The notes under the pieces were generated by a model. It searched no databases and was not told where the DNA came from. It saw only the letters and a list, made by a program, of their open reading frames with translations. The translations under genes and the position numbers were made by a program. Shown in pieces: positions 1 to 25,983 of a DNA stretch of 54,070 nt (position 1 is the first letter of the stretch; every line of letters begins with the position of its first letter). Source of the DNA: Phanerodontia chrysosporium (Eukaryota; Basidiomycota; Agaricomycetes; Polyporales; Phanerochaetaceae). Where the stretch lies: contig MJGA01000072.1 in the NCBI GenBank assembly GCA_001910725.1, positions 1-54,070 of the forward strand, in the 5' to 3' direction.

Positions 1-3000
1 CAGCAGCAGTGGCAACGAATGAAAGGAGAAAGAATGCGTACATCTCTGCGAAACACGGTCAAGTGTGGATACACAGTCTCTGAGATCGAAGGGTGACCCC
101 ATGCCTTTACGAGTGGAACGATGACTTCATGGAAGAGGTGACTGTGTACGACGTACGTCGCCGCCGTGAATAAGTCAAGAAGAAAGGGAGGAAAAGTACG
201 GAAGCAGTACTCACTTGCCATGATAGTATTCGGGTGAAAGGGCAAGCATGTCGATATGATACACGACTTCAAAACGAAGAGCGCGGGGCACGTTGTCGGA
301 AGCCATTTTCTCTGCGAAGCGTGTATGAGGCAAACCGCCACGAAGATCGCGATTGATGTTGCGAAACGAATTTGTCTCTGAAGACGACTTGCAGAAGGGT
401 AAACCGAGCGCAGCAGTAGCTTGTCCGCGCTGAACATCGTGGTTGTCTGAGGTTCGGCCGCTGCGATGCATTGCAAGATTATAGATTTGCAGAGCGGAGG
501 CGGTGATAGGTGACGCGATGTGTGACGAAGATGAAGGAGGGCGAGCAGGAGGAACTATGTCATTGTTGCTGTCGTCGTTTTCGTTGTCGTCGTCGTCGTC
601 GTCGTCGTCGTAATAATTCCTGGGGCCCGGAAACAGGTCTTCAAACCAGTCTTCATCGTCATCGTCATTGTCGACGTCGTTGTTGTTGCTGGCATTGTTG
701 TGCGATACTCTGGGACGATGGTGGTGTTGCTGTCGATCGATGGAAGAGGTGTCAGACCTAGGATCGCGGTCGTTGTCCAAGTCTTCGTAGTCGCTATCTC
801 TTGCGTGAGCGGGGCTCTGAGGTTCTTGGTTCTCTGGCTGTGAAGCGGTGCGACGGGCGACTTTGTTGTTAACCTTTTCGAGGTAGGCGTTGAAGCAAGG
901 TGGTAACTGTGTTGCTTGGAGGTGGCCGTACTTGTGTAAGGAAGCTTGAGGATAAAGGTTGTAAACGTTGGGGCGAGGTTGGTATGCTTCGCCGTCATCG
1001 TTGATGTGAGAACGGTGTTCGCCTTCGGTGAAGAGTCTATCGATGTTGCTGAAGTTGACGAGCATTCCGGCCTCTCCGATGTGTTCGAAACCAGAGCGTG
1101 AGATAGGGAAGCCATCGGATTGTATATGCGAAGATGGTTGTCCTGAGGGTCACGCATTGGCCAGTGTCTGAGTTGTCCTGGAAGTACGCGTTGACGGGTG
1201 AGAGGATCCCAGTCATCGTAAATATCGGGATTGGCGTGTTCGATATCGGCATCGTTCAAAGGAACCCATTTCAGAACGTTGTAGGCACTGAAGGAGAAGC
1301 GTCAGACGATTGTATGAGCAAGTAAGCGCAGAGTGAAACGGGACGCACGAGAGATCAGATGATAGGGCGAGGGACAAGGAGCGGAGCTCATGGTAAAGGT
1401 AATGGTCACGCCAGTCGCGTGCAAAGTCGTCGAGCGAGGCGTTGTTGGTGAAGATCGCTTTGTTTTGTCCGTAGCGACAAGTGACGACGGCGGGTGCCTT
1501 GTCTTGAAACCATTCGCGCCAGGAATCGGGGATGAGGTCGAGCCATTCTATGTAGTTCTCTCTCCAGGACAGGTTGAGGCGACGGACGTCTTGTAGACCG
1601 AGGTGTATGTCACGTAAGTCTCTCCTATGTGCGCGAATGGTCAGCCGCTGGGTGCATTGGATGCGTTTGGACGAAGTGTGCCAGAACGCATGTTTCCCCG
1701 CGCGTGTTTCGAAACACGCGCGGGGAAACAGCGTGAATCGGCGACAATGAAATTTCAGTGGTCAAATGTCTCCGCGGGTGTTTTGAAACAGCTGCGGATA
1801 GACGATAGAACATGAAGAGGGTGATATGGGTCGATGCACAATGCAAGACAATAGCACCCCGCGCGTGTTTCGAAACACGCGCGGAGGGAATATATTTGGC
1901 TCGGGGGATGAAATTGTGGTGTGAGTGAAAAATCGGGGGTTTCTCCGCGCGTGTTTCGAAACACGCGCGGAGAGGGGCCTCGTTTTGCTACCACGGTCGA
2001 TTTCAGCGAGCATGGTCCCAAGTGTGCGTTTCCCCGCGCGTGTTTCGAAACACGCACGGATGGAACGACTGTACTGTGAACGAGTGCAATTCAAAGGGGG
2101 GAATGTGGGACTTTTGGGGTCGAAAAGAAAGCGGCGTCTGGAGAGAAGAGTACTCACGCAAGACTGGTGATGCCGCGTAGGCCATCCATCGAGGTCTCTG
2201 CAGCTTCCCACGTGTGAGGGACGAGCAAGTGACGTCAGATATACCCTCTTTGTGAAGGCAATAGGCGATGAAGACAGCGGTGCGAAAGAAGTGTGTGAAA
2301 GACATCCGAGAGTCGATTGCACCTCTCTTGGGAAGAGAGTACTGAAAGTTTGCAGGGTCGTTGAAGAAGTCTTTAGGGGGAAGTATGAGCCATACACGAT
2401 CACCACGAGCGACACCGAGTGAGAGCATGGAGCCAGTAAAGTCGTAGCCGAGGAGAGCGTGCTTTGCGCGGAACGAGCGTGAGTAATTAGCCAAGGTAAG
2501 CGCAAAGTCAAAGTCGAGACCGGAAACTCTGTTGGGAAGCATGGCGACGAGGCTGGGTTCGCGGGGAACAGCAAGGATGAAGTCCAGGGTGCCGTGTTTC
2601 GCGTTGATGGCGATGTCGTTGTGGTTGGCGGGCTTGACGTAGAACGAGTCGATGTCGATGTAGTGCCTTTCCTTGAGCAACTTCAATTTGTCGCTTCGAG
2701 TTCCAGTCTTGTCGAGCGTGCGAAGGGCGGAAAGCTTGAGAGGCAAGGGAATCTGGCTATGGAAAGTGCGATCTTCCTTGTCGTCGGCATAAGCTTGGAT
2801 GTACTCTGTGACCTCGGTTTGAGATACGCCGTCTTCTGTCAGCAGAGACATTGGCAAGTCTCTAGGACCTGACTGGTCTTCCCAACGACGTCTAGAGTTT
2901 CTGGTTTCACGTTATTGGAATAAATGAAGGCGAACTGTGAGATGAAATGCAATAACTCACTCGTCAAGGAAGATTTCGTCTAGGCGGGTTGCGTTTGCTC

Positions 3001-3061
3001 TAGCGTGTCCGAGAGCAGCCGGAGCGTGCTGTGGTTGGAGAACACGGTGTTGAACAGGCAT
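1..3061 (-). CDS. A2: unrecognised module protein, 3' end outside the window
   Basis: Paralogue of the gene at 16707-12631. ATG at 3061 (protein begins MPVQHRVLQ). Exons read as 3061-2961, 2900-2158, 1624-1349, 1287-215 and 141-42; the donor GTACGC after position 42 leads off the left edge, so the last two exons seen in the paralogue are missing. Shared blocks include GISDVTCS, CRYGQNKAI, LSLALSSD, MLVNF, ALQIY..AMHRS and HDVQRGQ.TA. An Asp-rich tract lies at about 590-690. Exons 2 and 4 are each one base short of the length needed for splice phase: one base appears missing near 2230 (after a CCC run) and one near 1125. This could be assembly error or gene decay. Intron 2 (1625-2157) holds four palindromes. 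I do not recognise the family; function unknown. Confidence 0.7.
1696..2063. repeat. Type-1 palindrome array, four copies, in A2 intron 2
   Basis: Four copies of a loop-free palindrome: half-arm CCGCGCGTGTTTC followed directly by its reverse complement, often extended by one or two C/G pairs. They lie at about 1696-1725, 1858-1885, 1943-1972 and 2035-2062. The last has one base change in the right arm (CGCACGG). Spacers are 60-130 bp and mostly unrelated to each other. All sit between the donor at 2157 and the acceptor at 1625 of A2, the intron position that in B2 carries the other palindrome family. Confidence 0.9.
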
Positions 3062-4124
3062 GGTATCGAGATAGAACTAGTGGGCTGAGTGGTGAATGAG
3101 TTGAGAGACTCTGAGGAGAAGCGTGAGGCGGGCAACCGTGTGGTAGTGAACGGTGAAAGGCTTGGCTGGGCGAGCGAGGACGGTGAGGAACAATTTGCGA
3201 CGAAAAGTGGTAGCGATATTCGGCAGAGATGCCCGATGAGGCGGACTGGATGGAGGAATGTGACATGATTCGCGAGGAATGACGCTTGGCGATCGAGAGC
3301 GAAAAGTGATTAGCGTATAAAGTTAGTTTCAGGGTAAATCTCAGTGAGGTAAAACGGATCAAGACGTAGGTACGGTCCTTAGGAGCCGTGGAGCGCATGG
3401 CAACCGGAGAATGTGGGGATCAGGAAGGAGGTACGCGTGCCGGGTACGTGAGGGCTGAACACGAACGAGAGAAAGAACCGCACCTCGAGCGCAGCGCAGC
3501 GGAAGAATGATGTCGTTGAGTGTAAGAGAACGACACGAGGAGGTACAGTAGGATTGGAAGGCCATTGCAACTGCATGCGAAGGGTGAAAGTAAGTGATAG
3601 GTTCGATGAATGTGTTGCAGCAACTGTTCTAACACATTCATTTTCCTTTTCCTTTTCTTTTCATTGTTTCAATGGCAAGTCAAATTAGGGGAGTGACCTG
3701 CACGCACTGAGCAGTTGTTAGGAGAGTATGCCTGCACAGAGACACCAGACAGGGATGTACAGAATGCTGTATGAGAGCGGTGATGTGCAGGACAAGTAAG
3801 GCAAAGTCTTGAGCGTTTGAGGAGTGGATTATTGATACTTACTTGATGTGCCTGGAAGTGCGAATAGGTGGCAAACCAAAGGCAAAGCGGACAGCCGAGA
3901 GGACGAGGCAGAGTGGTATGCAGCATAGATTACGAGATACTAATACATGACAATACAGAAAGGCGAAAGCGTGAGGGGGTGACGGGTTACGGTGAGCGAG
4001 CGACATGATACAAGCAGGACGAAGGTGGATACGACATGAACGAGAGCCGAGTGCGCGAAGGAAGACGAGCGAGGGCACGAGCGCGACGACGAGAGACAAG
4101 AGAGGCCGCAGGCGAAGCGAGTGA
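3062..4124. other. Intergenic region between A1 and A2
   Basis: About 1.06 kb between the A1 stop and the A2 start, so it should contain the A2 promoter and A1 terminator. I see no convincing coding exon. There is a pyrimidine-rich run near 3640-3665 and no palindrome of either family. Confidence 0.5.
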
Positions 4125-7100
4125 CTAAAGGACTTCGTACCTAGTGGCCTTGCCCTTCTCTGGCTTGTTGCGAACGACGATTGGAGCACGCGATGGAGGG
4201 GCATCGTCCTCTGCGTCAGCGGACTCGTCTGGGACAGAGCCATGTGGAGCAGCGCTGCGAGTGACGCGCTGAGCCAGCGTGATAGCGGTACGTTTCCCAG
4301 GGTGCTTGCTCGTCGTCTTCTTGCCCTTGCGAGGCCCCTTGCTCTTCTTCAGGGGCACGTCCTCGTCCTCGTCCTCGACCTTGTCCTCGTCGTTGCATTG
4401 GCGTGTCGTGTCGAGAGGCTGCGAGGATCAGCGGCGTCATCGAGAGATGTCGTGCGAGGCGCGGGGGATGCCAGGGCATCGTCGGGGACAGGGCTGTGTC
4501 TCTCAGTGGGCGCGGGCGACGATGGGGATGGGAGATGGACTGCCGTGTGAAGCGTTCGGCGAGGTAGTCGCACGGCCTTTGCCCTTGTCGACGGACTTGA
4601 GCTGCGACGCGTCGAGGTCGTCGAAGACGTTGTCTGCGCTGAGCTCGCGCTCCTGGTCCTGAGGAACTTGCGAAGACATTGGCTGTGTCGTGAGCGGCGA
4701 AGGCGGAGCTGAATACAATATGTCAGTTGAGTCGTTGATGTGTGTGATCGAGCAAGCACGAAGATAACAACGACAACGAAGGGGTATGAAGCCGTCGAAG
4801 CTGAACAGTCCAAGAGTGGCATCACCCTCCGCGCGTGTTTCGAAACACGCGCGGATATCCAACGTTCTGAGCACAGTGGCCTATGTAAAACGAGTATACG
4901 GTGAAACCATGGTATCCTCCGCGCGTGTTTCGAAACACGCGCGGGGAAACGCACGGTTTGGACCATGGTCTCTGAAATCGACCCTGGTGCCCAACGATGC
5001 CATTCCCCGCGCGTGTTTCGAAACACGCGCGGGGATCCGACGTTCTGGAGCACATAGTGTGAAACCGTGGTATCCTCCGCGCGTGTTTCGAAACACGCGC
5101 GGGGAAACACACAGTTGGGACCATGGTCTCTGAAATCGACCCTGGTGCCAAACGATGCCATTCCCCGCGCGTGTTTCGAAACACGCGCGGGGATCCAACG
5201 TTCTGGAGCACATAGTGTGAAACCGTGGTATCCTCCGCGCGTGTTTCGAAACACGCGCGGGGAAACACGCGGTTTGGACCATGGTCTCTGAAACGAACCG
5301 TGGTGGCCAAACGATGCCCCTCTCCGCGCGTGTTTCGAAACACGCGCGGAGAGGGGTCATATTTTCGACATAGACGGTCCACGAGCAGATATTGGTATCA
5401 AGAATACTCACATGATGGACGCGGCGAGTGTTCACTCGTTGCGTACGTCGCCTGTGTACCTACTGGTGGGACCGCTTCTGTACCGACACCTTGGCCGCGC
5501 GCGTCGTCGTCGTCGACGTCCATGTCAAAGGCCTGCACGTCCTTCATGACCGTGTCATCGCGCGATTGCGACGCGGACGGAGCTGCCTGTTCTTCGACAC
5601 CGACAGACGGGCCTGCCTCTTGCAGGTTGGTATCTTCGTCTTCCCCTTCAAGCGTGAGCCTGAACGCCATCACCTGGTCTGTGGCTGCCATCGGTGAGTC
5701 GGGCTCAGAGTCTGCAGCGCGATGCTTCTTCGGTGGTGGAGAACGAAGATCCGAGTCGCTGCGTCCTGCACGCGTACCTGCAGGCGCACCAGCAGCAGCC
5801 GTCTCAGCACCTTTCGCAGGCGACGTGGGCACGGAGCGCGGACGCTTGGAGACAGTGCGCGGCTTCGGCAAAGGCTTCGTCGTCGCTCTCGCAGAAGACG
5901 ACGACGAAGGACCTGCTCGGTCCGTCGCTCGCGCCTCGTCGTCATCGACGACCATCCTGTCTTCGGCGGGCTGAGGCTGCGGCTGAGGCTGAGGCTCCTC
6001 GTCGACGTCCATCGTGTCCGAAGGCTTCGTACCCTCGGCCTTCTTCAGCGTGCTCTGTCGTAGCTTACGCCGGACCTCGAGACTGGCACCTCCTGCTGTC
6101 GAAGCAGGCGTCGCAATGAGGAGCAGCTTCGCCAGCATCTGGTCAGACGGGCCCTCCACCTCGTGCAGCGCGTTGAGGTCGATCGGCTCAGCCGGGTCGA
6201 CGTCGTTGACGATGCGCAGGCCTGAGAGCGGAGCCGGGAACATGTTCGTGGCACCCTGGATCTTGAAATACCCTGGGGCCATGTTGCTCCTGTGGCCACC
6301 GTCCTCGTCCTCGTCCGCGTCAGAGTCGTCGAAGTGGCTGTCTTTGATCTCGCGCTGGCGCTCCAGATTCTCCATGATGACCTGAATAAAAATACTTCAG
6401 TTTGACTGGCATCCAATAAACGTTTTACTTACCGTCCACGCTGCCTGAAGTGCCTGAATGACCGCCTTCGAGATGGTCTTCACAACGATCATGCCGGTGA
6501 CAGGGTGTACAGCGTACACGCCAGAGACGGAGAGAAGACGTCGGAAGATCACCTCGACCTTGGCGACCTCGGTGCGAATGTCACGATGGTAGAGGATGAG
6601 GGCCCGCAGCATCTCCAACGGCATCGGGATTTCGTCCTCCGCGTCAGTGTACGCGGAGATCTCAGACCCACCGTCGCTGCTCGACGAAGCCGATGTCGCG
6701 TCCTCGTCGTCCTCGTCCTCGTCCTCGTCCTCGCCCTCGTCGTCCTCGTCGTCCTCGTCGTCCTCGTCATCCTCGTCATCCTCGTCGTCCTCGTCTTCTT
6801 CCTCGTCCTCGTCGTCTTCGTTCTCTTCCTCGTCTTCATCGTCGCCCTCGCTCTTCGCGCCGTCTTCGTCCTCGTTCTGGTCCTCGACGTCGCCAGAGTC
6901 GTTAGCCTTCTTCTTGCCCTTCAGGCGCGTATTCCGTGCAGCTCTCGCGGCTGCTCGCTCACGCCGTGCGCGCAAGGCAGCCTCGCGCTTCTTCTCGATG
7001 GATTCTGCCGACCGCGCGCCGTCCGGCCAGATGAACATCCGGACGGACTTCGTGGTGGCGACGAGGGCAGGCTGGGAGTAAGGGTCGAGCGCGGCCTCGA

Positions 7101-10100
7101 TCGAAGCGCGAAGCTGCAGCATGTGCTCATCATCCATGATTTTCGGGAGCACCACTTTGTTGTGCGTGCTCTCGAAAATCATGGCGAGGAACAACGTGCT
7201 GATCTGCTCGTTCATGCTGTTCGCAGTGAACGCAGGCCAAAGGTAGTGAGACCGCAGTGTCCATCGGCCTGCGTCCGACCGGCTTGACGTGACAGCCTGG
7301 TGGCGTGCGCTCCACTTCTTCTCGGGGTCCTTGATCCAAAGCTTCACAATGTTCTGGAGAGCTTCGCGCTCGGTGTTGTACGATGTCAGGGCCTCGAGGA
7401 GGTCGAAGGTGTCGGAGTTGAGCCAGTCCTGGTAAGGCGCGATGTCGACGAAGGTCATCGCAGACTCGACAGTCTGGACGCTAGGCCCGGCGGTGGAGGA
7501 GGGGGGGACGTAGGCGGCGTTGTCGGAAGCTTCCTCTGCGGTCGCTTTGCTGGCCTTGCCCTTGCCCTTGGCCTTGCCTTTGCCTTTGCCCTTGGCCGTC
7601 GTGGTGGTGGTGTCCGCTGCTTTGCCCTTGCCCTTGCCCTTGCCCTTGCCGCCCTTTGCCGTCTCTGCTTTCGCGCTCTGCTGGGTGACAGCAGTACGGC
7701 CACTTCGCGGCAACTTGTTCAGCTGCTCGTTGAGGCTCGTGAGCGTACGGTTGTTCGTGCGGTTGGTGCGGCGGACGTTGTAATCGGTGCGGGCTGTGTC
7801 GATATCCTGGACGTTGCTGTTGAACCAGCCGTCTGACAGGACGGCGCCCTGTTCTGCCTTGACGAGGAGGCGAGGCGGGACAAGGGTCTTGATCTTGTCC
7901 TCGATGAAGTAGATGGTTCGCGGGCCCTCGTTGTACAGCGTCCACATCAGCTGTACCGAGGCGTAAGTACGGTGTATCTACGACGGATAGTCATAGCAAT
8001 GATATGACGCACCGCTTCCACTGCCTTGTCGACATGTTTAGGGACGATATTTGAGTTCGGGTTGCGAAAGGCGGCGATGACGCCCTCGGAGAAGTCGCGT
8101 GCGATGTACGGGGAGAAGTTCTTCGTGATGATGTAAGGTATCGAGCGGTCAAAGAAAGGAAGAATCTGCAAATATGGTTGTGTCAGTTAATCGCTTTAAA
8201 ACTGACATACACGCTCGAAAGGGGACCATGCGCGTAAATCGGCCAAGTCACCGCGCGTGTTTCGAAACACGCGCGGATGAATGACCGTTTTTGAACGGTG
8301 CCTCGAAACTGCACCATCTCCCGCGCGTGTTTCGAAACACGCGCGGAGAACTACCCCATTCTCGCCCTCGTAGGCTCGAACGACAAGAACAAAGCCTTGG
8401 GTCCAAAACGGTGTGCTCATCCGCGCGTGTTTCGAAACACGCGCGGATGAATGGCCGTTTTCGACGGTGCCTCAAAACTGCACCATCTCCCGCGCGTGTT
8501 TCGAAACACGCGCGGGGAACTACCCCATTCTCGCCCTCCTGGCTCGAACGACATGGAAGAAGCCTTGGGCCCAAAACGGTGTGCTCATCCGCGCGTGTTT
8601 CGAAACACGCGCGGATGAATGGCCGTTTTCGAACGGTTCCTCGAAACTGCATAATCTCCCGCGCGTGTTTCGAAACACGCGCGGGGAATCGCACCGAAAC
8701 TCTATACCAAGAAAAATCATACCGTACTCACCTCAGATAAAGCGTCCTTGCAAAACTCCAAGCGACGGAACGTGTCCATGACGAAGGTGAGGCTGGGAAG
8801 CGGCATCGGCCCAAAGTTCTCGTGGCACTGCTGGCCAGAGAGCACGAAGACAACGGCTTTCGCCTCGACCTGCGCCCAGAGATCCTTCGAGTGCTGCGAC
8901 GCACTGTCGTCCGCCTTCACGCTCTCGCACTTCGCAGAGACGAGCTCGCGCAGCTTCGTCAGGTACATCTCCAGCGCGTGCTGGACAAGAGCCTGATCGT
9001 CGTTGTTGCGCAGAATCTTGTTCGTCAGCAACAACGCGACGTCCGCTAGCTCGACGCGCTTCTTGTCGGTCTTGAACGCGTGCATGTACGCCTCGTCCGC
9101 CAAGGACATGATGTCAGGTAGTATTTCGTACGAAGGGCGTTCCGTCTTGTTCCCCAGCATGAGCTTGTACATTCCGCGCCAACTTTTCTTCGACTGCGCG
9201 ACCAGTTCAGGGACTTCCGAAGCACCCTGCTGCGTCCAGTTGCCGATGCTGTTGTCCAGAGTGCTGATGTCGGGCAGTCCTTGATGACCCGCCCCATCGC
9301 ATCGAAATGCACCCAGAGCGTCCCCACAATCGTCGACGCGAGCTGCGTTCCAAAGAAATCAGCAACGCTCCACGCACATCGTCAAGCCTCGCGCGCGAGC
9401 GAACTTACCGCACCGTACACGTCCAGCAAATGCTTCTGCAACAAGTTCACCTTCCAGATCGCGTGCTTCGCCAGCGCGTCCTTCGCATGTGCGATGCGAA
9501 CCAACAGGCTGAGCGAATGCGCCGAGCGAAGCAGCGCAGTCACCGCCGCCGATTTTCGCGGCTGACCCAGTTGCTGCTTCGCGACCTCGGCCATGGCTGT
9601 CGCAGCGTCGACAATCTCGGTCGTGTCCTTCTTCGCGCCCTTCGCAGCCTTGCTGGCCTTCGCGGCCTTCGCGGCCGCCTTCGCAGCCTGGGCAGCAGCC
9701 TTCGCGGCCTGAGCAGCCGCCTTCGCGGCCGCCTTCGTCTGCTTCGTCGAGGCCTCGGGCGCGGATGCGTCCTCGTTCGCGCCACCCGCGTTCGCGTCCG
9801 CCTCCTCGGCGTCCATGCTGAGTTTCTCAGCTTCCGCCGGAGGCGCGTTCGCGTCTTTCATCGAAGTCGCCGTCGTTACCAAGTTCTTCACCGCTATACT
9901 CACCAGCTTGCTCGCGTCGTTCTTCTGTTCGCCGTAGAGGAGCTTGTCCAGCTCGATGCCGAGGAGCCCCAGGATCATCTCCAGAAACTCCTCTGGAGTC
10001 TCTCCGCGCACCATCTCCCGGAAGTTCCTCGCCATCTCGTAGAGATCGTCCGAGGTGAGCTTGTCTGTCAAGTCGTAACTCGCCGTCAGCTTCGTTAATA

Positions 10101-11230: not shown

Positions 11231-11496
11231 TTCTAAGCAAACTAACACTCCAGTGAGTAACTTGGTAGTAAGATCAATTTGCACTGCACTCACAAACAGT
11301 ATATTCAAGGTGGGCTGGTGGGCTGGTGAAGGTAGAGAGCGAGAGGCGAGATCGACGAGGGAGCCTTGATCCATCGATCGATGGCATATGTCCCGTTTTG
11401 GACGTATTAATTGATGAGAATAAAATAATAATATTTGATATGCCCACATATGGGGCTTGTCGGACGTCTAAATGGGAACGTATCAAACAAGGCGCC

Positions 11497-11738: not shown

Positions 11739-11739
11739 C

Positions 11740-12235: not shown

Positions 12236-12239
12236 CCAT

Positions 12240-12660: not shown

Positions 12661-15600
12661 GTTGTCACCGAGGGCTTGGTGGGAGCGAGATTGCCTCTGA
12701 ATGTCTTGCTCGAGTTCGTTGAGGAGCCAAGCAACTGTCTCCTGCTCGAACACGCGCCAAAAGGCGACGCAGAGGTCGAATGCGCGCGTTGCCGATGAGA
12801 CAGTCTTTGATGGATCACTCGCATTGAAAGCGGATCTCGCGCTAAGGATTTTGAGGGAGAAGGTGGCTTGAAAATGCTGGAGGATGATAGACAATCAGTA
12901 TCCATCCAGGAGGAGGTTGAAAGCCATGCGAATTGTACGAGGGGGTAGGAATGTAGTACATGTTACCGACTCCGTCGAGAGGGAGGGTAACCCGACCTCT
13001 GCTCGAGCAGGGATCGGAAACGAAGGGAAGTGCGTGAGGGGAGGGGAAATCCGACCGCTGCTCGAGCAGGGATCGGAAACGAGGGAGGGTGCGTGAGGGG
13101 AGGGGAAATCCGACCGCTGCTCGAGCAGGGATCGGAAACGAGGGAGGGTGCGTGAGGGGAGGGGAAATCCGACCGCTGCTCGAGCAGGGATCGGAAACGG
13201 AGAGGCGTGGGATAGGGAGAGAGAGAGAGAGAGAGGAGAGCCGATCGCTTCTCGAAGAGCGATCGGGAACGAAGGTGTAAGGGGGCGAAAGCAAGGGGAG
13301 AAACCGACCGCTCCTCGAGCAGCGATCGGTGGACACCAGTGGGAAACAATGAACGAGAACACGACGACAGAAATAAAGTGATTGGAGAGAACAGAAGTGC
13401 GATTTCGACGGTGAAGAGCAGAGAACAAAATGTTTACTCACGGCACATAAATCGACGCCATAGTGATAGATCAGACCTGCGCGGGCGGCAGACTTTGGGA
13501 CTATTCCGTTGTCTTCGCAAGGCCAATTGTGGAGGGAAACGTCGACTTTGGGTAGGCCGTTTGGGAAAGTAATGGAGACAATGTCTGGGTTCAGACATGG
13601 CATACCGTCGATGAGCAGGCTTGTGGACAGCCAGAGGGGGTCCATGGTACTTCGAGTCATGACGCGTGCGATGCCGGTATGGCAGTAACTGAGGGCGCAC
13701 TCTAGATTGGCGACAAGGTCGATGAAATGTGATGGAACATGAGTACCGGCGCCCTCGGTCATGGTGCCTTGGTCGTGAAGGTGCTCGAGCAGAGTGGTCA
13801 AGCCCTGAGTTGTCCAGTTGTAAAGCTGGGGGTAGACCTAGCGTACGATTGAGGTCGATGAAGGAACTCTATGAACGATGGTTCGGGAATACGGCAGCAA
13901 AAGGTTGATACTCACCTTGGTGTCGATAGCTGTGAAATGTGGGATAATATCTTCTCTCAGGCTGCCGTGCGACCAGGAGCGGATGAGGGGTGAGACAATT
14001 TCCTTGAAGAATACGCTGAGGGATGTAGCGACGTGAGAAATGGGGGAGAGAAGGGTTGGAGGTGGGGTGAGTATGCGGGCGAGGAACGAGTAGGTGAGAG
14101 GGAACTTACGCGCCGTCGTAATACTTGTCCTCAAGCTTGCACATGTCAAAGTGATAGACAACTTCGATGCGCAACTCTCGAGGCAATTCCGGGGTGTTGA
14201 TCTTCTCTTTGAAGCGTTGATGCGGAAGACCGGCCTTGAACTGATCCTTGATGTTATTGAGGGTCTTGGTCTCGGGAGTGGACGTGACGTAATGGTAGGC
14301 GAGGGAAGCGGTTATTTGACCGCGTTGAACGTCGTGGTGTTTGGCGGTGCGTCTGCTGCGATGCATGGGAAGGGCGTAAATTTGAAGAGCACTGGTAGTA
14401 ATGGGGGACTCGGTGATCTTTTCCTGGTGAGGATGAAGGCTTGCCTGGCTACGGCGCTCGAGCTCGTCGTCATCGCTGGAGTCTCCGAACTCGCCCTCGT
14501 CGACCCAATGAGTGAGTCCGATGGCCCTGTTCAGGTTGCTGACGAAGTTACGATGAGGGCGCGGGAGGACAGTGGCCTGGAGGTGGCCGAGGTGATGGAG
14601 GCAAGCTTGAGGATAGATTGTGTAGAGGCTGGGACGGCCTGAGTTGATTTCGCCGTCGTCATGGGTGTAGGAACGCGATGTGTGCTGGGCGGAGCTGATG
14701 AAAAGGTCGTCGATTCGTTTGAAGTTGACGAGCATGGCAGCGGGGGAAGCAGGGACAGAAACGGTGCGAGGAACGAGGTAGCCGTCAGCGTCGTAGATGT
14801 GAATTTGGTTGTTGTCCTCATCTGCGAGAGGGAGCGCGAGGAGGTCGTCGAGCTCTAGATGTTGGCGAACCTCGGGGTCCCAATGGGTGTACAGCTCTGG
14901 GTGATCTTGGTAGATCTCTTCGTCGGGGATGGCATGGTAGGTGTCGACGAAGTCGGCTCTGAGGGGAGGTGGCGGTTAGAACAGGTGATGGATTGGATGT
15001 ATGGAGGAAAGTGGGAATAGAATGGCGTGTGGGGTGTAGGGGGTGGGGTGTGGGGTGTGGGGTGTGGGGTGTGGTAGTGGAATAACTGACCTGACATCGG
15101 TGGAGAGAGCGAGTGAGAGAAACTTGATGTTCTCGAACTTGTGGAGGGTCCGCCACTCTTGTGCGTAAGCTTTGAGTGTGTCGGGAGCAGTGCTGATGGG
15201 TTTGTTCTGACCGTAGCGAGAGCAGATGACCATAGGCTTGCGCTTTGCGAACCAGTCGCTGACGTTCTCGGGCAGTCTGCGTCGGAAGTCTTCATAGTCG
15301 TTGTTCCAGTGATCATGAAGTTTGACGACAGCATCAAGCTGTAGGGTTCGACCGCCCTCACTGGAGGAAATATTTATGTCAGTGAAATAGTGCTGGAGAT
15401 GGAGGTGAAGAGAGTTCAGGGGAGGGGCTCCCCGATCGCTGTTCGAGCAGCGGTCGGTGAAAGTGGCACGGAGGACGCCACGTTGAAATGAGGTGGGTGA
15501 CTCCGACGGCTGCTCGAGCAGCGATCGGGGCATCGACGACGACGAGGGGTCGAGGGACCGAGAATGAGGGCGGTAACTCCGACCGCTGCTCGAGCAGCGA

Positions 15601-16707
15601 TCGGGGTGTCGGCGACGACGAGGGGTCGAGGGACCGAGTTGCACCGATCGCTGCTCGAAGAGCGATCGGGGTTCGCGATGACTGGGCATGAAGTGGCTGA
15701 CAATGTCAACGTCATCATGAGGCCGCAAGAGCAGCAGGGGGAAAGGGACGACGACAATGGCAAAGACAAAGACAAGGACAATGTACTCACAGGATGTTGG
15801 TTATTTCCTTGAGAGAATCGAAGGAGGGATCGTCCAGGTTCCAATACATCTCATTGCTACAAGTAACGTCTGAGATTCCGCGCTTGCGCATAACGAAAGC
15901 GAGCCAGATGCATGCGTAGTACCAGTGTATATGTGAGAGCCTGGGATCGCCAGAGATGGTGCCCGGAGGTTTGTACTCGATTTGGGGGTCGTCGCGAAAG
16001 AAGTCGTTAGGAGCGAAGACGAGCCAGAGATCCTCGTCGTTTGCGGTGCCGATGTAAAGCATGGAGCCGACGGGGTCGAAGCCGAGCATGGCATGCTTGT
16101 TTGCGAAGAAGCGAGCACGGGTGATGAACAGCTTCCAACACCAATGAAGTCCGGCGATAGTGTTTGGAATAACTGCGCCGAAGCCGGGCTGACGAGGGAC
16201 GCAGAATTTGAAGTCCATGGTGCCAGACGACATATCGAGAGCGATGGAAGCATGGCTCGCGGGGCGGATGTAGTGATCATCGATGACGACCTTGTGGCGT
16301 GAGGTGAGGAGGCGTATCTTGTCAGATACGGTGCCCTTTTTGTAGATGTAACGGAGCTTGGATAGAAGTACTTCTTTGCGACGGGAGTCATGGAAGTCGC
16401 GATCGTCGTGCGAGCGATCGTACAAACGCAAGAAGTTGTTGACGTTGTTCTGAGGGACGGCGTCGTTTGCGAGAAAGGCGAAGGGAGGTGCAGCGAGGTC
16501 GACCTCTACTTCATTGACAGGACGAGAAGAGCTATGAATGAGGAAGTCGATTGGACAGAGTTAGCGATGGATGTCGAAGAGCATAGAGAGGAGAACGTAC
16601 GGATCTGCAAGCATGGCGTCCATTGCGAGCGCCTGCTGGACTTGGGATGAGCGTCGATCAGGAGCGAGTTGCCTGTGGGTCACAGAGGTGGGTTTGACAG
16701 GAGGCAT
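12631..16707 (-). CDS. B2: unrecognised module protein, intact paralogue of A2
   Basis: ATG at 16707 (MPPVKPTSVTH). Exons read as 16707-16601, 16531-15791, 15360-15091, 14958-14110, 14015-13916, 13837-13442 and 12876-12631; total 2709 nt, 902 aa, every phase consistent. Conserved with A2: GTMDF.F.VPR, KHA.LG.D..GSML, GISDVTCS, RYGQNKPI, LSLALSTD, MLVNF and HDVQRGQ.TA. No signal peptide, membrane segment or catalytic motif is obvious. The last few residues (after ALGDND) and the TAG come from an inserted repeat, so the natural C-terminus has probably been replaced. Palindrome arrays sit in introns 2 and 6. It starts 566 bp downstream of the B1 stop on the same strand, as A2 does from A1. Function unknown. 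Confidence 0.82.
12985..13335. repeat. Type-2 palindrome array, six copies, in B2 intron 6
   Basis: Six imperfect copies of the type-2 palindrome (half-arm CCGATCGCTGCTC plus its reverse complement) at about 12991, 13051, 13111, 13170, 13240 and 13306, between the donor at 13441 and acceptor at 12877. The 13051-13196 part is an almost exact 60-bp tandem repeat. A GA dinucleotide run lies at about 13216-13236. The homologous intron of A2 would lie outside the window. Confidence 0.85.
15019..15076. repeat. GGGGTGTG simple repeat in B2 intron 3
   Basis: A short tandem repeat of GGGGTGT-type units inside the intron between 15090 and 14959. It is G-rich on the plus strand (C-rich in the transcript). 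Confidence 0.85.
15428..15672. repeat. Type-2 palindrome array, four copies, in B2 intron 2
   Basis: Four type-2 palindromes at about 15431, 15503, 15577 and 15645, inside the intron between 15790 and 15361. Spacers around the second and third repeat a GACGACGAGGGGTCGAGGGA segment. The intron is at the same coding position and phase as A2 intron 2, which carries four type-1 palindromes. Confidence 0.9.
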
Positions 16708-17272
16708 ATTGTGTTGTGTCGTCTGCGCAAGGAAGAGATGTGCGATTTCAAAGGAGGTGATGAGAGGGAGGAGGGGAGGGGGGGTGCGCGCGGGTGAAAT
16801 GACTTTGGCAAGGATTAAAAACCGGAAAATTGCTGCGCGATAATCCGTTGATGACGGGGAAAAACATGTAAACGGAGCGATATCGATTGATGTGACTCGA
16901 TATGGTTGTAAGCGAGGTGTAAAACGCATTAGTGTGGTGTACCTCATGTCATGGGGGAGGGGAGGGTGGGAACGGAAGAGAGGGAGCGGAGACACAGACC
17001 GGTGCTATATCTAAAGGCCCAGGGAGGACGTTGCGAATTTGTGGGTAGTGGCTAAGGGAATGAAGTGGCTTACCTGAGCGTTGCGGAGACAGCACAAGTG
17101 TTTTGAGGGAGAAAAATGATGAGAAAGCGAGAATGAAATTATACGATAGAAATAGTGCAGTAAAAGTACATGTAATCTATGGACGATGATGACGAACGCG
17201 CGATGTACTCATGGGACATGGAGGGCGGGGGACGGTGACGGTGACGGGCGGGAGTGGAGGGACGAGTGAAGT
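16708..17272. other. Intergenic region between B1 and B2
   Basis: Contains the presumed B2 promoter and B1 3' region. AT-richer than the genes; a G-rich run lies at about 16765-16790. No palindrome of either family and no credible gene. Confidence 0.5.
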
Positions 17273-20200
17273 TTACCGCCTCTGATGCTTGGTACGAGAT
17301 GACGAGGGGCGAAGAGGTTCCATGGTGATCGGGGCGCGCGACGCCCTCTGCCTGGTGGTTGGACCTGGTGGGAAGTCTTCGACAGGCGACGAGCGTGACT
17401 CTTCCTCCTCGTGGTGCATTTCGACGTCGTCATCGTGTGAGGGTTGAGAGGTTTGTGCGAATGCGGGGGAGGTGGGTTGCGTGCGGGAGGGAGTGTGAGG
17501 TGAGGGAGCGGCGGGCGTCGATGATCTGGTGGCAGCGGAGGGGCGATGCGACATGGCGGGGGTGGGGCCTTGTGAGAAGGAGGGGGCCGACGATTGGGGC
17601 AGTTCGTCGAAACGCGCGGCGTCGAGCTCAAGTTCGCGCTGGGCAGCGTACTGGCGGTCGAACTCTTCGGTTGGGGGCGGGACGAACAACTCTTGGCCAT
17701 GGCGAGGGTAGCGTCTGGGCTGTGAGGGCGGAGGGGGATGGAGCGATGACTCGGGTGCGGGAGGTGCGAGGGACGATGAACGGCGAGTGGGCGGAAGGGA
17801 CGACAGACTGGACTCCGAGCTCGTGCGACTGTGGCGGACGACGCCAGGGAATGACGGGGTTGCATCGGTGATCGACGAGGACGGGGGCTGTGACGGGGGC
17901 AACGTGAGCTGTGACGAAGCAGCGATGTCGGCAGGGTTGTCGTATGCGAGCGATTGGTCGGGCTCTGGGGAAGGAGACTGCGAGCCTTCAGGAGCTGATG
18001 GTCTGCCATCGCTATCGGAGCCGCTGCCGCCCTGGTCATGGTCCTGGTGCTCGTCCTCGTCCTCGGTATCGCCGTGGACGTCGGGGTCGTCGTGCTCGTC
18101 ATTGGCATGAGGGTCGAGGAGCACCTCCCTCTCCTCCTCGGAATTGAGCATGTCTACGTCATCTGGTGAATGGAAGCAATTAGTCTACAATACGTGAAGA
18201 CGAGAAGAGTGCAGATTCCCGATGGCTGTTCGAGTAGCGATCGGGGAAACGTTGGTTCTCGACAGAAGATTGAGAACCCGTACGTTATCCGATCGCTGCT
18301 CGAGGAGCAGTCGGGAAAGGAGTACACACTCCGACCGCTGTTCGAGGAGCGATCGGATAAAGCCTACGCAACCCGATCGCTCTTCGAACAGCGGTCGGGA
18401 AAGACGTATGCAACATCCGATCGCTGCTCGAAGAGCAGTCGGGGACGGCGCACACCACCCGATCGCTCTTCGAAGAGCAGTCGGGGATGGCGCACAACAC
18501 CCGATCGCTCTTCGAAGAGCAGTCGGGGAAAGCTGGAAGCACCCGATCGCTCTTCGAACAGCGGTCGGGGCTAGCGTGCAGCACCCGATCGCTGCTCGAG
18601 CAGCGATCGAAGGAGGGGTACATCGAAGCGGGAGAACTCACCAGAGACATTTCGCGCCGCGACCTGCTCCTGTCCCCTTCGACGTGAGAGCCGCTTCTCC
18701 CTGCGCAGCTGGCGTTCCCGTTCTTGAGCCTCAGCCCGACGATGGAGATCGTCTTGCGTAGCTTGAGACGCAGCCGCAGCGTGCATCAGAGCCAACTCCT
18801 TTCCCTTCTTCTTCGCGAGTGCCTCGGCGACGTACTGCCGCAGCTCGGGGTCGTCCGAAAGCTGGTCGTCGGACTCGGAGACTCCCTCGTCAGAGGTGGG
18901 CAGCTCGCTGCTCGAGCCATCGTCAGCGTATTCATCCGAGGAGCCCGAGCCCCAGTCTTCACCGGGCATGGTGTACTGCGCCGTTTTTGACGCAGCTCGC
19001 CGAGGGCGGGGCTTGGGCTTGGAAGGGGAGGTCGACGCAAGATTGGTCGAAGGCTCCTCGGCCTCGTCCATCTCGACGTCTTCGTCCACGGCCGAGACCT
19101 CACCCTCGTCGTGGCGGGCCTTCTTCTTCACAGGTGACCGAACCACGGAACCACTCCTCGCCAACCTCGTTGAGGGGGTCTCGCCGGTGGAGCCGCTCTG
19201 CGGCGAAGACGTCACGTTGTGTTTCCGCTTCCTGGGCGTCGAGGGAGCTGCTTCCGGAGACGTCGTTGCCGCAACTTCCTGAGCTGAGGGTGGGGTATAC
19301 GTGCGCTTTTGACCGACATAGACCTCGAACGACTTGGGTACGATGACGAGCTCGTCGTTGTCGATCTCGATCGCGTCCGAAGTCGCGCCCTTGCCAGCCG
19401 AGCCTGATCCCGAGTTGGCCGGAGGCGTCCTCGTCAACGGAACGCGAGGTGGGCCATCTGGATCGAAGGAGGTCAGCGCGTTGAGGTTCCAGGGTGATGC
19501 CTTGTCGTAGTCAACCACGGTTCGAATCCCTTCGGTCGGCAGCGGATACATGTTCCAGTACTTCGACGGGTCGAAGTACCGTTCCTCCTCGAGCCTCTTC
19601 TCGAGGACTTCGCGCGTCTCCCTCTCCGGGTGCTGGTTCCGCAACTGGAGCCTGATCTTCTCGATCTCGTACTTGTGCTGCATGTTACCCATGAGTGCCT
19701 GTACGAAGGGTGAGCAAGTAACGCGGCGAGACGGCTTCAGGATTCTCACCGTGAGGAATCCTTGCGCAGCGAAGAAGACGGACTGTGAGACGGACCCAGG
19801 CATGACCTGAGAGGTCTCGGGGTTGAATGCCGACGCAGATGCGAGCCCAAGGGCCTTGAGAATGGGCGCGAGGACCTTCTGCTTCTCGCTGGCGATCGTC
19901 GCGCGGCGGACAAGCCAGAACTTCGTGTCGCTTGCGGATGGGGCGCACCAATCGTAATCGGCGTCGTTCAAAGTGACGCGGTATCCGTCTGGCCACTGCC
20001 ATTCGCGCTGACTGACGAGAAGGAGCTGGTCGCGTGTGAGGGATGGGCGGCAGTACTTGTCGAGCACGTCCTGGAGGATGTCGCGGGTCTTGCGGAAAAC
20101 GATCATGTCCTTGATTTTTGAGAGCACGACCGTCCAGTATGCGTATTCGAAGTGCAGGGCGATGAGAAGGTCACGGACGATGACGCGCGTTGAGTTGCTG

Positions 20201-23200
20201 CCGATGGCGGGATAGTTGTAGTGAATGCGCAGCAGCCACTGCGCGGGGATGGATGAGGGAACGTTTTCGCGGAGGTGGGAGTCTTTCCAACGACGCTCTG
20301 TCGTCTTGCCTACGACGAATGAGTCGATGATGGGCTTGCAGAACTGGAGGTCGTCGACGATATTCTGAACTACCTCGAGGAGGGGGAAGTTAGTCGGGTT
20401 CAGCCATTCGCGGTAGGGAGAAATGTCGACGAAACCGGAGTCGGCAACGGGAGCGGGGTCCTTGTCCTTGTCCTTGCCCTTGCCCTTGCCCTTGCCCGTG
20501 CCCTTGCTTTTTCCGGCCTTGACTTCCTTGCCCTTGCCCTTGGCCTTGCCCTTGCCCTTGCCCTTGACGCCCTTGCTGACGTCTGTCTCGACGGGTTCAT
20601 CCAAGACTGTCGCACGTGCCTTGCCCTTCGCACGCGAGGTGGACGGCCTCGGCCCCCTGGTCGCAGTGGTCTTTTTGGGCCTGGATTTGAGCGCGGACTT
20701 CTTCTGCTTCTGCTTGTGGGCGGGCTCCTCGTCGCTGTCGTCGTCGTCTTCATCCATGTCGTTCTCGTCCTTCTCGGTGGTATCGTGTTCGTCCAGCGCA
20801 TCGTCATCGTCGTTCTCGTCGTCGCGGTCGTCGTCACCCTCGTTGTCGTTGTCGTTGTCGTTGTCGTCGTCGCCGTCGTCGTTGTCATCGTCGCTGGGAT
20901 CGATCTCGTCGCCGTCGTCGAAGTCCTCGCCGTTGTCGGCTACGATGGCATCTGTGCCAGGGACGTAGTCGGCATCCGGGTCGACGACGTCTTTGTCGGG
21001 AACGATTCCGAGATCTTCTACCTTCGAGGCGCCTCGTTTGTTGATGCCGAAGAGAGTTTTGATAGCCTTCATATATTTCTGGTTCTGGAGGGAGGTATCG
21101 GCGCGACGGCGGGCGTACAACTGTTTGGCTTCGTTGAGGTCGATGTGGGGGCTGAGAGTCCAACGATCCATGAGGACATTGACCTGGACCTTCCTGTCGA
21201 CGAGACGCGGTGGCATCTTGTCTGCCAAGAAGGTGAGCTCGTACAAGGTGACGGGGCAGGCGTTGAATAGCGTCCAGAGTAGCTGGGAACATGAAGTGAG
21301 CCGTTGTACGGTATGACGGATTATGTACAAACCTCTTTCCGAGCGCGTTCGTCTGACCCAAACTCGATGCCGCTATTGGGATTCATGAGCGCGCGTCGGG
21401 CAGCATCCGAGACATCGCGGGCGACGAGAGGTGAGCTGTTGGACTTCCTGACGAGGGTGGGGATACTGGGGTCAATCATCGAACACGCCTGTGGGACATT
21501 GATTAGTGTTGGGTCGAGGTAGACTGAGGATTGTGCATAGTAAGTGAGCTCCCCGACCGCTCCTCGAGGAGCGGTCGGGGCGAGGTGTAGGTGCGCGAGG
21601 AGCTGTCGGGGAACGAGTACGCATGCCTCGCCCCGACCGCTGTTCGAGGAGCGGTCGGGGAACGAGTACGCATGCCTCGCCCCGACCGCTGCTCGAGGAG
21701 CGGTCGGGGAACGAGCACCTGCACCTCGCCCCGACCGCTGCTCGAAGAGCGGTCGGGGAACGAGCACATGTGCCTCCCCCGACCGCTGCTCGAAGAGCGG
21801 TCGGGGAACGAGCACCTGCCCCTCGCCCCGACCGCTGCTCGAAGAGCGGTCGGGGACCGAGCACCTGTGCCTCGCCCCGACCGCTGCTCGAGGAGCGGTC
21901 GGGGAAATACAATGTGTGGTGAACGTGGATACGAAGTGTCGAGCAGTACTCACCATCGCGATACCGCTTTGGCTCAGATCGAGCCGACGCATCAAGTCCT
22001 GGATGAAGCTGTACGACGGCAGAGGCATACGCGGCACGTAGCTTTCGGGAAACCCAGCCAGCGTCGTGAAGACGTGAACCTTCGCCGCGACCTGTCGCCA
22101 CAAAGCCTTCTGCGACTCCGAGTATCGCGTTTCCTTCTTGCCGAACCTCTCGACCACCTTCTCGATCTTGTCCAACAGCGTGTTCCGGTAGTGATCCATC
22201 GCCTTCATCACCATCTTCTCCTCGCCCAGCGATTGACTTCCATCCGCCGTCAGCGCCATGATCGCGTCGCTCGGCTCGCCGTCCGATGTACGAGGGAACG
22301 CCTCCAGGTACGCCTCGTCGATCACCGGCAGCAGGTCCTCGAGGATGTCGTACGACGGCTTCTGGCGAGGGTTCCCCAGGTACCGCAGCCAGCATCCACG
22401 CTGCTCCTCCTCATTCTGCTTCAACGCCTTCTCGTCCAGCGTGTCGCTCTTCTCGACGAGGCTCTGCACCCACGTCCTCACCTCCTGCTGCGAGCCGCAC
22501 TCCGCCACCATTCGCCCCATAGCGTCCATCCGCTCCCATAGCGTGTCGACTATTTCCGATGTAATCTGCCCGCACAAATACATTATCTCAGTTCGTTCGC
22601 ACGAAAAGAAAAAATTCCCAAACTCACCGCTCCAGACGTTCCAAGCAGATGCGCGAACAACTCCGGGACCTTCCACAGCGGATGCCGAGCCAGCGCACGG
22701 CGTCCACGCACCACACGGATCAAGAACGCGACCGCATGCTCGCAACGTACCAGGCCTATGACAGGGCCCGGTTTATTGCCAGCCCTGTCGTTCGCCTTCT
22801 GCTTCAGCGTGTCCATGACGCCCCGCGCCTTCGTGTTCCTCTCCTTCATTGCGGCCTCCGTCTCCTTCACCCGCGCTGCTTCAGCTGCCGCGACTGCCTC
22901 GTTCGCAGCAGTCTTCGCCTCCGAAGCCTCGACCTTCGCCGCCGCGAGCTCCTGCTTCAACGCCGACACGTCTTGCCTCGCCTTCGACGCGGCCTTGATC
23001 TTCGCCTCGAGTGTCTTCACCTCCTCCATCGCAAGCCGCGCCCTCTCCTTGAGCCGATTGCTTTCTTGGACTGCGTGCGGCACACCCTCCAGTTCGCTTG
23101 CCGCTGTAGCCATCGCCGCCGCCGCCGCCGCCTCGCCGTCCTCGCCTTCGCCGTAGATGTAGCGGTCCCGCATCTGCGCCACCTGTACCATCAGCATGTC

Positions 23201-24312
23201 CAAGAACTCCTCGTTCGATTCCACATATTTGGGGTCCGCCTCGTTCCTTGCCATAGCGTACAAATCGTCCATAGCCAATAAATCTGTTGCGCACAATTTT
23301 CAGCTCCCTCGAGACGCGTTCCACTCGAGCCTCGCACTCACCAGCGTCATACAAAGCCACAGTCCAGAGACCGCCATCCTTCCGGATCCTCTCCCACTTC
23401 GCCATCGACATGAGCAGTTTGTCTCTCTCCTCCTCCAGGAAGATCTTGCGCCGTGCCGACGGCTGCTCCGTGCCGATCTTCTCGCTCGCGAGGTCTTCTT
23501 TCAAGGCCTGGTCCTGAAGCGTCCCCAGATCGGCCTCGATCGTCGCGTAGCGTTGCATCGCCGCCGCGATCTGCGTCTCCGCAGTTTTCAGAACCGCACG
23601 CAGCGCCGCTTGACGGTGCTGTCCGCCACAAGAGGGCAACATCTTGACGTCCTCCTTGACGAGCGACTCGACCGTCGGCCACTCTTCTTCGCTTGCCTCT
23701 GAGATCGACAGCTCGCGCAGTCGGTCGAGGTCCCGGCACTTGCTCAGCCGCTCGACCGCGTCGGGCTTCAGCTGCGTCTTGACGTGGACCGGAATCAGAA
23801 TCACCGACGTCGCGTCGCAGCGCCGGATGCCAGCCTCGATCATGCCGTTCTTCAGATTCTGCGTAGCCTGCTTCAGGAGCGCGCGCGTGTTGTAGATACC
23901 GTGTTCGAGCTCGACCAACGCGCCTTCTGACAAGTTCATCCGCGCATGTCCGAGCAGTGCCTTCTTCGCCGCCTTGGACAACTGCTGCAGCCGCTCTGTG
24001 TGCGTCCTCTCCAGCTCGCTTGTCTTTTTCTGGATCTCCGCGTCAACCTTTTGCTTCTGTTCATCACGTCAGCACTTCATTTTACCCTGCAGGGAACTCC
24101 CAACAGGAGTTCCCATGACGTATCAAGCGCACCGTAGTTTCGTCGATCGTCACGTTCTTGCCTTTTCCCTTCCCTTTTCCTTTGCCTTCCGATCCTCCAG
24201 GGCGATCTCCCGCCACGTTGCTGCCGCGCCCTGTCGCCGACGACCCGGCCTCAGGTGCAGCTGCGAGAGACGACCTCGCCTTCCGTGTACCAGATTTCGT
24301 TTTTTCAGACAT
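17273..24312 (-). CDS. B1: 1949-aa protein with ParB/DGQHR-like motif, intact paralogue of A1
   Basis: ATG at 24312 (MSEKTKSGT). Exons read as 24312-24133, 24056-23342, 23283-22628, 22565-21954, 21488-21333, 21282-18642 and 18162-17273; total 5850 nt, exactly 1950 codons. Exon 1 has a GKGKGKGK stretch. Exon 2 has TQLKPDAVERL and SCGGQHRQAALRA, then LWTVALYDA. Exon 3 is a long coiled-coil-like Glu/Ala/Lys region. Exon 6 has ENDD-type acidic runs, KGKGKGKAKGKGK repeats and a folded-looking block (SPYREWLNPTNFPLLE, QWLLRIHYNYPAI). The C-terminus is Ser/Pro-rich and ends SRTKHQRR. Composition suggests a nuclear protein. Introns 4 and 6 contain type-2 palindrome arrays, and another array lies upstream. 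The GQHR motif is seen; a ParB-like fold and DNA or nucleotide binding are inferred. Confidence 0.83.
18215..18612. repeat. Type-2 palindrome array, nine copies, in B1 intron 6
   Basis: Nine copies between the donor at 18641 and acceptor at 18163, at about 18219, 18288, 18331, 18372, 18418, 18459, 18501, 18543 and 18583. Spacing is tight and nearly regular (about 42 bp). Arms vary: several have GATCGCT on one side and AGCAGTC on the other, so this is the least symmetric array; the copy at 18583 is perfect. The corresponding intron of A1 carries type-1 palindromes. Confidence 0.9.
21548..21905. repeat. Type-2 palindrome array, seven copies plus a half copy, in B1 intron 4
   Basis: Seven copies at about 21551, 21632, 21680, 21730, 21777, 21826 and 21876 plus a partial copy near 21597, in the intron between 21953 and 21489, with about 48-bp spacing. 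Here both arms differ from the usual type 2: CCCCGACCGCT on the left and AGCGGTCGGGG on the right, so the changes preserve pairing. Spacers are repeats of AACGAGCAC.TG..CCTCG. Confidence 0.9.
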
Positions 24313-24556
24313 GTTTCCTAGGGCGACCTTCCCTGTCAGACTTGCTCTGCACCCTAATGACAATGTCCCACTTACTGTTGTTGTTGCTGTTGCTGTTGCT
24401 GTTGCTGTTGTTCGCGAGTTTCTCGACCGAGTGGTGGTTGAGTGAGTAAAAAACGCCTCGATCAGCATGCGATCGATTGCACGCCGTCCAGATTTGGAAT
24501 TAACACAACTAATTAATTTATTTGATAAGGCTCAATGTGGACATAACTTTTTGTGT

Positions 24557-24880
24557 CTTCCCGATGGCTGCTCGAGGAGCGATCGGGAGCATTCAGGAAT
24601 GGCGAGAATGCAATTTCGATGCGTGTTTGGCTGTCACTACGCTGTTCAATCAAATTCACCTCGCTCTTCCGACCGCTGGTCGAGCAGCGATCGGATCGAG
24701 CAGGAGTTTGGGCATGCTGCCTGACTCCCCGATCGCTCCTCGACCAGCGGTCGGTGACACCTCTCAATTCAATCCTGCGCCAATACGGTGCCTCTTTTCC
24801 GATCGCTGGTCGAGTAGCGATCGGATGATTGCATCCATTCTCGTTGTGCCACTCCGATCGCTACTCGTCTAGCGATCGGC
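24557..24880. repeat. Type-2 palindromes, five copies, upstream of B1
   Basis: Five diverged copies at about 24559, 24667, 24727, 24798 and 24853, starting about 250 bp upstream of the B1 ATG. Several have GGTCGAGCAG or CTCGACCAG cores. The position mirrors the type-1 array upstream of A1. A promoter function is possible but not shown. Confidence 0.85.
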
Positions 24881-25720: not shown

Positions 25721-25983
25721 AGCCTATCCTACCACGTTAACCCCAATAACCTCATTTAGCTTAATGGCTCACCGCTCTCCTCGCCTCGGGCTCTCCTCCG
25801 TTCAATCCCTCGCCTTGGTTGTTCTGTGCCATATGAACTAACTTCGATGAGGTGGTGGTACTCTTGAAGCTGCGTTCGACAGCGAACGGGCGATGTGACG
25901 ATTTGTAATCTACTAATTGTTCCCACGCTTGATAGCCGAAGCACGTGTTTATCATTCCTGCGCACTGTCTTGAACGGTAGTGC

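Follow-up and report, generated by a model that had tools for sequence, protein, structure and literature searches.

Why do two related gene modules, side by side on one fungal contig, carry different palindromes at the same intron positions? The stretch that raises this question, called the window throughout, is the whole of a 54,070-bp contig (C116) of Phanerodontia chrysosporium, and the genome searched comprises 39.0 Mb in 145 contigs. Contigs are labelled here by C and a number; C alone denotes a third element family, and C1 is gene 1 of that family. The left 32 kb of the window is occupied by four minus-strand genes, A1, A2, B1 and B2. As judged from their sequences, the A and B modules are parts of multi-copy mobile elements at chromosome ends, a point missing from the preliminary description of this DNA. 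Our answer, which we hold with slightly better than even confidence, is that the palindromes serve as DNA binding sites, with a motif for each family, and are read by a protein encoded by the element itself, and that motif and protein have diverged together. The binding itself, and the role it would serve, we infer.

Two palindromes in matching introns

Both palindromes are 26 bp long. Type 1, CCGCGCGTGTTTC.GAAACACGCGCGG, has 22 sites in the window, of which 20 are perfect, one has a single mismatch and one, at 1772, is degenerate. Type 2, with half-site CCGAYCGCTSYTC, has 46. The earlier counts of about 21 and about 45 were close, and are replaced by these figures. Dyads of this length number 22 when perfect, 33 with at most one mismatch and 63 with at most two, against means of 0, 0.05 and 0.8 in 20 first-order Markov simulations of the window.

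Where do the sites lie? The exon-intron structures used here are splice models, not transcripts. Gene A1 (4503-11230, minus strand, nine exons) has six type-1 sites in intron 4 (sites 8251-8684, intron 8166-8731) and seven in its last intron (sites 4829-5349, intron 4659-5463), and gene A2 (211-2851, minus strand, cut by the contig start) has five in intron 2 (sites 1698-2059, intron 1625-2157). These three introns hold 18 of the 22 sites; the remaining four lie upstream of A1 (11500-11734). Gene B1 (17139-24312, minus strand, its last predicted exons uncertain) has seven type-2 sites in intron 4 (21553-21902) and nine in a late intron (18219-18610). Gene B2 (12815-16707, minus strand) is truncated in the window, and its unbroken copy on C113 is modelled at 1396 codons; four sites fall at the intron after its first long exon (15432-15669) and six in a late intron (12992-13329). 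Strictly within these four B introns are 25 of the 46 type-2 sites, as the site at 15432 overlaps the predicted acceptor, a model that is probably a few bases off. Five more stand upstream of B1 (24561-24879), 14 are spread over four further arrays in the 5' part of the B element (25988-31347), and a single one, at 12297, lies inside a relic of another B tip.

A1 and B1 have intron 4 in common and, with less certainty, a late intron; a comparison by eye of the residues on either side indicates that the intron following the first long exon is common to A2 and B2. The gene models confirm what had first been noticed, that matching introns of paralogous modules carry two palindrome types and that both large genes have an array upstream. 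The accompanying statement that each type is confined to one gene module holds for the introns, but type 2 runs on to 31347 and recurs at the relic site.

The palindromes are far better preserved than the DNA around them. Across arrays, identity is 99.6% for type-1 palindromes and 41-45% for their 20-bp flanks (21 of the 22 sites, the degenerate one excluded); for type 2 it is 84% in the palindromes and 33% in the flanks (31 of the 46 sites, those at 12992-24879), where random 20-mers give 31%. When 126 type-2 sites, 49 of them distinct, are pooled, constancy is 90% or more at ten of the 13 half-site positions. By their sequence the half-sites look like a binding motif in which three positions (5, 10 and 11) are free to vary.

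The arrays are also spread along the element. In the B element of C113 there are ten of them, and the largest gap is 3.25 kb in 22.6 kb. The evenness of this spread has a probability of about 0.002 under uniform placement, a post hoc value for one element, with the left border taken at C113:18112. Ten arrays with no larger gap point to a reader whose action has to extend over the element's full length.

One palindrome per family

Do relatives of these genes elsewhere in the genome have palindromes of their own? A search with one B1 open reading frame (ORF) gave 26 matches: ten B copies (96-100% identical), a partial one on C60, a divergent relative called B' (62-63%), five A copies, five C copies, and fragments. 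The palindrome of family C, CCGCGAGTGTNTC.., is a motif of its own that differs from type 1 by one half-site letter, and B' keeps the type-2 palindrome. Upstream arrays of the family's own kind are found in 11 of 11 B copies (five sites each), 5 of 5 A copies (2-5 sites) and 5 of 5 C copies (6-13 sites), and B' has four sites there; no homologue without palindromes turned up. Intron 4 contains type-2 sites in all nine B copies that reach it (5-9 each), the other two being interrupted (C63) or ending earlier (C60), and type-1 sites in 5 of 5 A copies, where the fetched stretch stops. B' has four type-2 sites at a distance fitting intron 4. The C82 copy alone among family C continues through intron 4, with three sites at C82:30765-30895 that have 3-4 mismatches; the copies on C73 and C21 lose similarity to it at the end of exon 4, that on C117 does so earlier, and that on C79 is cut by the contig end. 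The genome search proposed at the outset has found palindromes upstream in every family and, in copies that reach it, at intron 4. For gene 2, a variant, CCGCGATTGTCTGGG.., has three sites after the first long exon of a homologue on C82, which we assign to family C by contig and palindrome only.

Nor, as far as the matches listed go, was there a genome-wide scatter of palindromes unrelated to these genes. There are 71 type-1 sites and 137 type-C sites at up to 3 mismatches and 535 type-2 sites at up to 2, and the reversed controls of the three palindromes have 0 sites each. Among the matches listed, which are 50 of the 71 type-1 and 50 of the 137 type-C sites, all are on the five A1-bearing and the five C1-bearing contigs, respectively. 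The type-2 sites among the matches listed are on C9, C21, C33, C44 and C55, of which C21, C44 and C55 bear B1 and C9 bears a B tip. Single half-sites are present elsewhere, for example on C69.

Palindromes and proteins differ in step. The protein of gene-1 exon 2 is about 57% identical between A and C and about 63% between B and B', as against about 35% between A and B and 36% between B and C. For the first long exon of gene 2, A2 is 66% identical to the C82 homologue and 39% to B2, and the two stand at 38-39% to B2. The half-sites, of 13 letters, differ at one position between A and C, at none between B and B', and at 5-6 between A or C and B or B'. Because the closest proteins have nearly the same palindromes, the expanded introns look inherited and the motif appears to have drifted jointly with the protein. 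It had been suggested that inheritance is insufficient and that each locus re-fills its introns with its own palindrome; inheritance, together with joint divergence of site and protein, explains the pattern, and the suggestion is not needed.

Four of six comparisons suggest purifying selection on gene-1 exon 2, the ratios of nonsynonymous to synonymous substitution being 0.13 among A copies, 0.25 among B copies, 0.24 between A and C and 0.30 between B and B'. The other two are uninformative, as the C copies (0.89) are too alike and A and B (0.72) too far apart.

Element tips and chromosome ends

What are the modules part of? In the window, the A element (1-12244, minus strand) runs past the contig start, and its 5' tip, TATATGGGAAAATCG..., adjoins 12245. 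The B element (12658-31543, minus strand) has its 5' tip at 31543 and is without its 3' part, B2 being broken at 12658 and unbroken in C113. The B tip is sharp: all 24 tips examined, of 27, follow AT, with differing flanks, a similar flank stretch being found at C44:891 kb and C60:512 kb. The A tip follows AT at seven of seven genome places, and the C tip at the three read. At five of five unoccupied relatives of target sites that were compared, the AT was already there.

The elements are oriented with respect to contig ends. The 3' side faces the nearer end in 20 of 24 gene matches, 20 of 25 B tips and 7 of 7 A tips, counts that omit two second pieces of the 26 gene matches and two of the 27 B tips, and in which elements sharing a contig are not independent and the nearer end of a short contig need not be a chromosome end. 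The exceptions among genes are B and B' on C44, the C copy on C21 and a fragment on C76. The telomere unit is TTTAGGG, with perfect four-unit runs on eight contigs, six of which (C21, C55, C57, C60, C63 and C64) bear these elements; TTAGGG, considered as the unit, is absent from the genome in that capacity. In C64, telomeric repeats directly cap B sequence at 22.7 kb from the tip, close to the 3' end of B, and this end matches the 3' part of the C113 element at 77%. Telomeric repeats also follow B elements truncated 4.8 kb from the tip in C57 (C57:660100-661148) and about 3.3 kb from the tip at the end of C60.

An occupied and an empty site can be compared. The site taken up by the B tip of C55 is unoccupied in C51 and C63, where the telomere begins 103 and 90 bp past the AT. 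C55 carries B1, B2 and type-2 arrays, and its telomere lies 22.9 kb from the tip. The 100 bp that follow the empty site are not in the last 400 bp of C55, telomere-like matches aside, the stretch between having been partly read; the last 250 bp before the C55 telomere have no match in the C113 sequence read. In C63 an A element interrupts B1; the 33 kb read did not yield the rest of that B element, and the B2 exon was not detected on C63. These sequences suggest that the element replaces the chromosome end. Erosion followed by telomere healing, or assembly gaps, are possible alternatives.

Several observations concern the tips and ends themselves. At C21:15740-15880, interstitial telomeric repeats run into a B element without its first about 46 bp. 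The ends of C44 and C88 have a common stretch (..GTGTCGGCTGCCTTCGGTTTTC..) outside, or in place of, telomeric repeats. Near the A tip, at 11824-12089, an 11-bp repeat (TACCCTACTAG) similar to the telomere unit is present in about 20 copies, and TTAGGG occurs within the first 40 nt of the B and C tips.

Other features of the window

Between the A and B elements, sequence comparison identifies two nested relics of B tips, of about 276 and 141 bp (12245-12659, minus strand). The A element entered this relic at 12245, inside what is a type-2 palindrome in an intact tip. The B tip of C64 adjoins a type-C-like palindrome, and the two cases are too few to judge a target preference.

An inverted, slightly different copy of the B tip (TATAGCGG...) lies about 3.97 kb inside the B element (27575-31541). 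The pair has 672-nt arms that are 96% complementary, and it recurs on many contigs. Is this an independent transposon with terminal inverted repeats? We dropped that idea, as the inverted tip recurs about 3.9-4.0 kb from the tip at most loci (2.4 kb at C60); at the loci read (the window, C113 and C57) B sequence continues beyond it, and it is assigned to B. A small repeated ORF family (..FEGLSG..DNFEGDFAEY..) is found in and beside the B 5' part, at 28495-29186, 30165-30416 and 31599-31823; one ORF of this family gave no Pfam match.

To the right of the elements is a decayed 70-bp tandem array (32313-32552) with a palindrome near types 1 and C, including two degenerate type-1 relatives at 32315-32551; it probably survives from an older element. 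In the host part of the contig are a single-exon gene for an F-box protein (49072-50400), 89% identical to a protein of Phanerochaete sordida (Phanerochaetaceae, Polyporales), and a 271-nt inverted repeat (45657-46794) with arms 99% complementary and 596 nt apart, possibly a recent small transposon.

What might read the palindromes?

The preliminary description had raised the possibility that each palindrome is recognized by its own protein. The private motif per family stands, and the reader is probably the element's own; binding is the part that we infer. The reader would be the gene 1 or the gene 2 protein, both of which diverge in step with the site. The palindromes would be strung along the whole element, using introns where exons fill the room, and the reader would nucleate along its full length, site and reader changing together.

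Is there a precedent? The VANC proteins of Arabidopsis VANDAL elements bind short family-specific motifs in introns and in intergenic, terminal and other non-coding stretches (PMC5735166), the motifs are often in tandem repeats and evolve with the protein (PMC5735166, PMC10398659), and the whole element becomes hypomethylated (PMC5735166). The elements described here are alike in that arrays of a family-specific motif lie in their introns and other non-coding parts, and that the motif differs between related families, four in our case, in step with the protein. They differ from VANDAL elements in the 26-bp palindrome, in the basidiomycete host and in their place at chromosome ends. Their proteins have neither detected relatives nor a match to a MULE-type transposase; Pfam searches of A1, B1, B2 and ten further ORFs or pieces gave no such transposase and no other VANDAL protein. 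VANC on VANDAL is the one studied system known to us with this anatomy, and we therefore propose self-marking by an element-encoded protein. By this analogy the most likely role is escape from silencing, which would keep the element active in silenced subtelomeric chromatin. On this proposal the palindrome system resembles VANC in its working; no test made here places it in the VANC family.

A number of points weigh against binding by an element-encoded protein. None of the element proteins, A1 included, gave a credible domain, fold or relative, and no DNA-binding domain is recognizable. In Pfam, the sole match below E 0.1 for ten pieces is PepSY_TM at 0.096, far below the cut-off, and the long spliced pieces have none at E 1. 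In NCBIfam, an archaeal G3PDH matches B only (E 0.0004, 53 residues, 19 bits against a cut-off of 780), which we take as chance. Structure models are poor, with model confidence scores (pLDDT) of 50 for gene-1 exon 2 and 35 for the gene-2 exon. All element copies compared come from one species, and the families give at most two independent splits. The intron-4 evidence for family C is one copy, with one of its three sites nearer type 1, and B', which carries stop codons, may be dead. Lastly, the arrays of B copies, palindromes included, differ by 2.6%, as against 1.3% at third codon positions and 1.8% in short introns, though the array alignment behind the first figure is unreliable.

Searches for relatives gave little more. 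In a set of 5.8 billion proteins no homologue of B1 (residues 60-900 of a 1462-residue piece) or B2 was found; these searches scored roughly 8000 candidates sharing most words, so that relatives may be missed, and that with B1 was possibly crowded by low-complexity stretches. In the same set the host F-box protein, as a control, had 271 matches. Among viral contigs, 30 stretches fit a search pattern and none is a relative. Over the part of the element's ORFs that was scanned, Pfam gave no reverse transcriptase in gene 1, gene 2 or further ORFs, and in A1, B1 and B2 there was no Rep or helicase and no tyrosine recombinase of the Starship or Crypton kind. No hammerhead reached the Rfam cut-off in the five sources given.

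Could the palindromes serve something other than self-marking? The strongest competitor, although an unlikely one, is that they are sites for the element's own recombination or transposition machinery, where synapsis or cleavage takes place, like the subterminal repeats of DNA transposons. In its favor are the mobility of the elements, the precision of their tips, an array lying no more than 0.5 kb from the B tip, and the possession of a separate motif by each family; yet the arrays lie all over the element, mid-gene introns included, instead of clustering at the ends, and no known transposase was detected among the proteins scanned. It is still less probable that no reader exists, and that passive repeats spread by slippage or gene conversion while their divergence simply follows descent. 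Site number and spacing do vary among copies, with fast turnover of the arrays, and descent alone would also put A near C and B near B'. A passive repeat does not readily explain why 26 bp are kept while flanks between arrays are nearly unrelated, why most half-site positions are so constant, or why one palindrome fills ten separate arrays of a single element.

Partition offers another kind of reader. In ParB-parS systems, palindromic sites lie close to the gene of the reader, as they do here near the gene of the suspected one, and a centromere-like site could carry an extrachromosomal or chromosome-end form through division. Gene-1 exon 2 has an invariant GGQHRxAALR after a predicted strand (in a low-confidence model), which we took to resemble ParB/Srx-type motifs. 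A profile test did not support homology: the probability against three ParB sequences was 0.13%, and 0.18% for the reversed control. PF02195, the ParB N-terminal domain, has 0 matches in the genome, and no ParB is among the PDB sequence or fold matches shown, the fold search having used the low-confidence model. We consider partition quite improbable. Least probable of all is that the palindromes act as RNA hairpins in the unspliced transcript, in splicing control or as a source of small RNA. This idea draws on the 26 of 46 type-2 and 18 of 22 type-1 sites that are intronic or at an intron edge, but arrays also stand ahead of gene 1 and along the element's 5' part. Moreover, selection for hairpins should favor G.U and avoid C.C. 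In those 26 type-2 sites, read in gene sense, the arm mismatches are 19 G.U, 14 A.C, 15 C.C and 3 G.G; with 29 C.C and A.C against 19 G.U, the constraint fits DNA and not RNA pairing.

How do the elements compare with others at chromosome ends? Terminons and other telomere-associated Penelope-like elements (PMC6431247) are large, multi-gene and head-to-tail at telomeres, attach via telomeric repeats at the 3' end, and carry reverse transcriptase and hammerhead motifs. Our elements are likewise large, multi-gene and in head-to-tail order at telomeres; unlike in terminons, the tips examined (24 of 24 for B, 7 of 7 for A) adjoin AT in flanks that are not telomeric. One further B copy, that on C21 without its first about 46 bp, does abut telomeric repeats. 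Insertion at AT and a precise 5' end are features in common with Helitrons, which use an AT target and have a 5' TC end. The tip here begins TAT, not TC, and there is a bias to chromosome ends. That these elements are a new class of eukaryotic mobile DNA, living as chromosome ends, is a tentative idea that we think will probably not hold: the 5' tip would join AT, distal sequence would be lost, the far end would bear the telomere, and a family-private palindrome along the whole length would be read by the element's own protein.

Implications

In the passages available from the open-license PMC literature we found no description of this system. If self-marking through the palindromes is true, it would be a second, independent case, this time from fungi, of sequence-specific self-recognition by transposons. 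The families A, C, B and B' would then offer a ready-made set of proteins, each paired with its site, in which to follow changes in DNA recognition. Should the elements also prove to be terminal, they would show one route by which the ends of fungal chromosomes come to be replaced.

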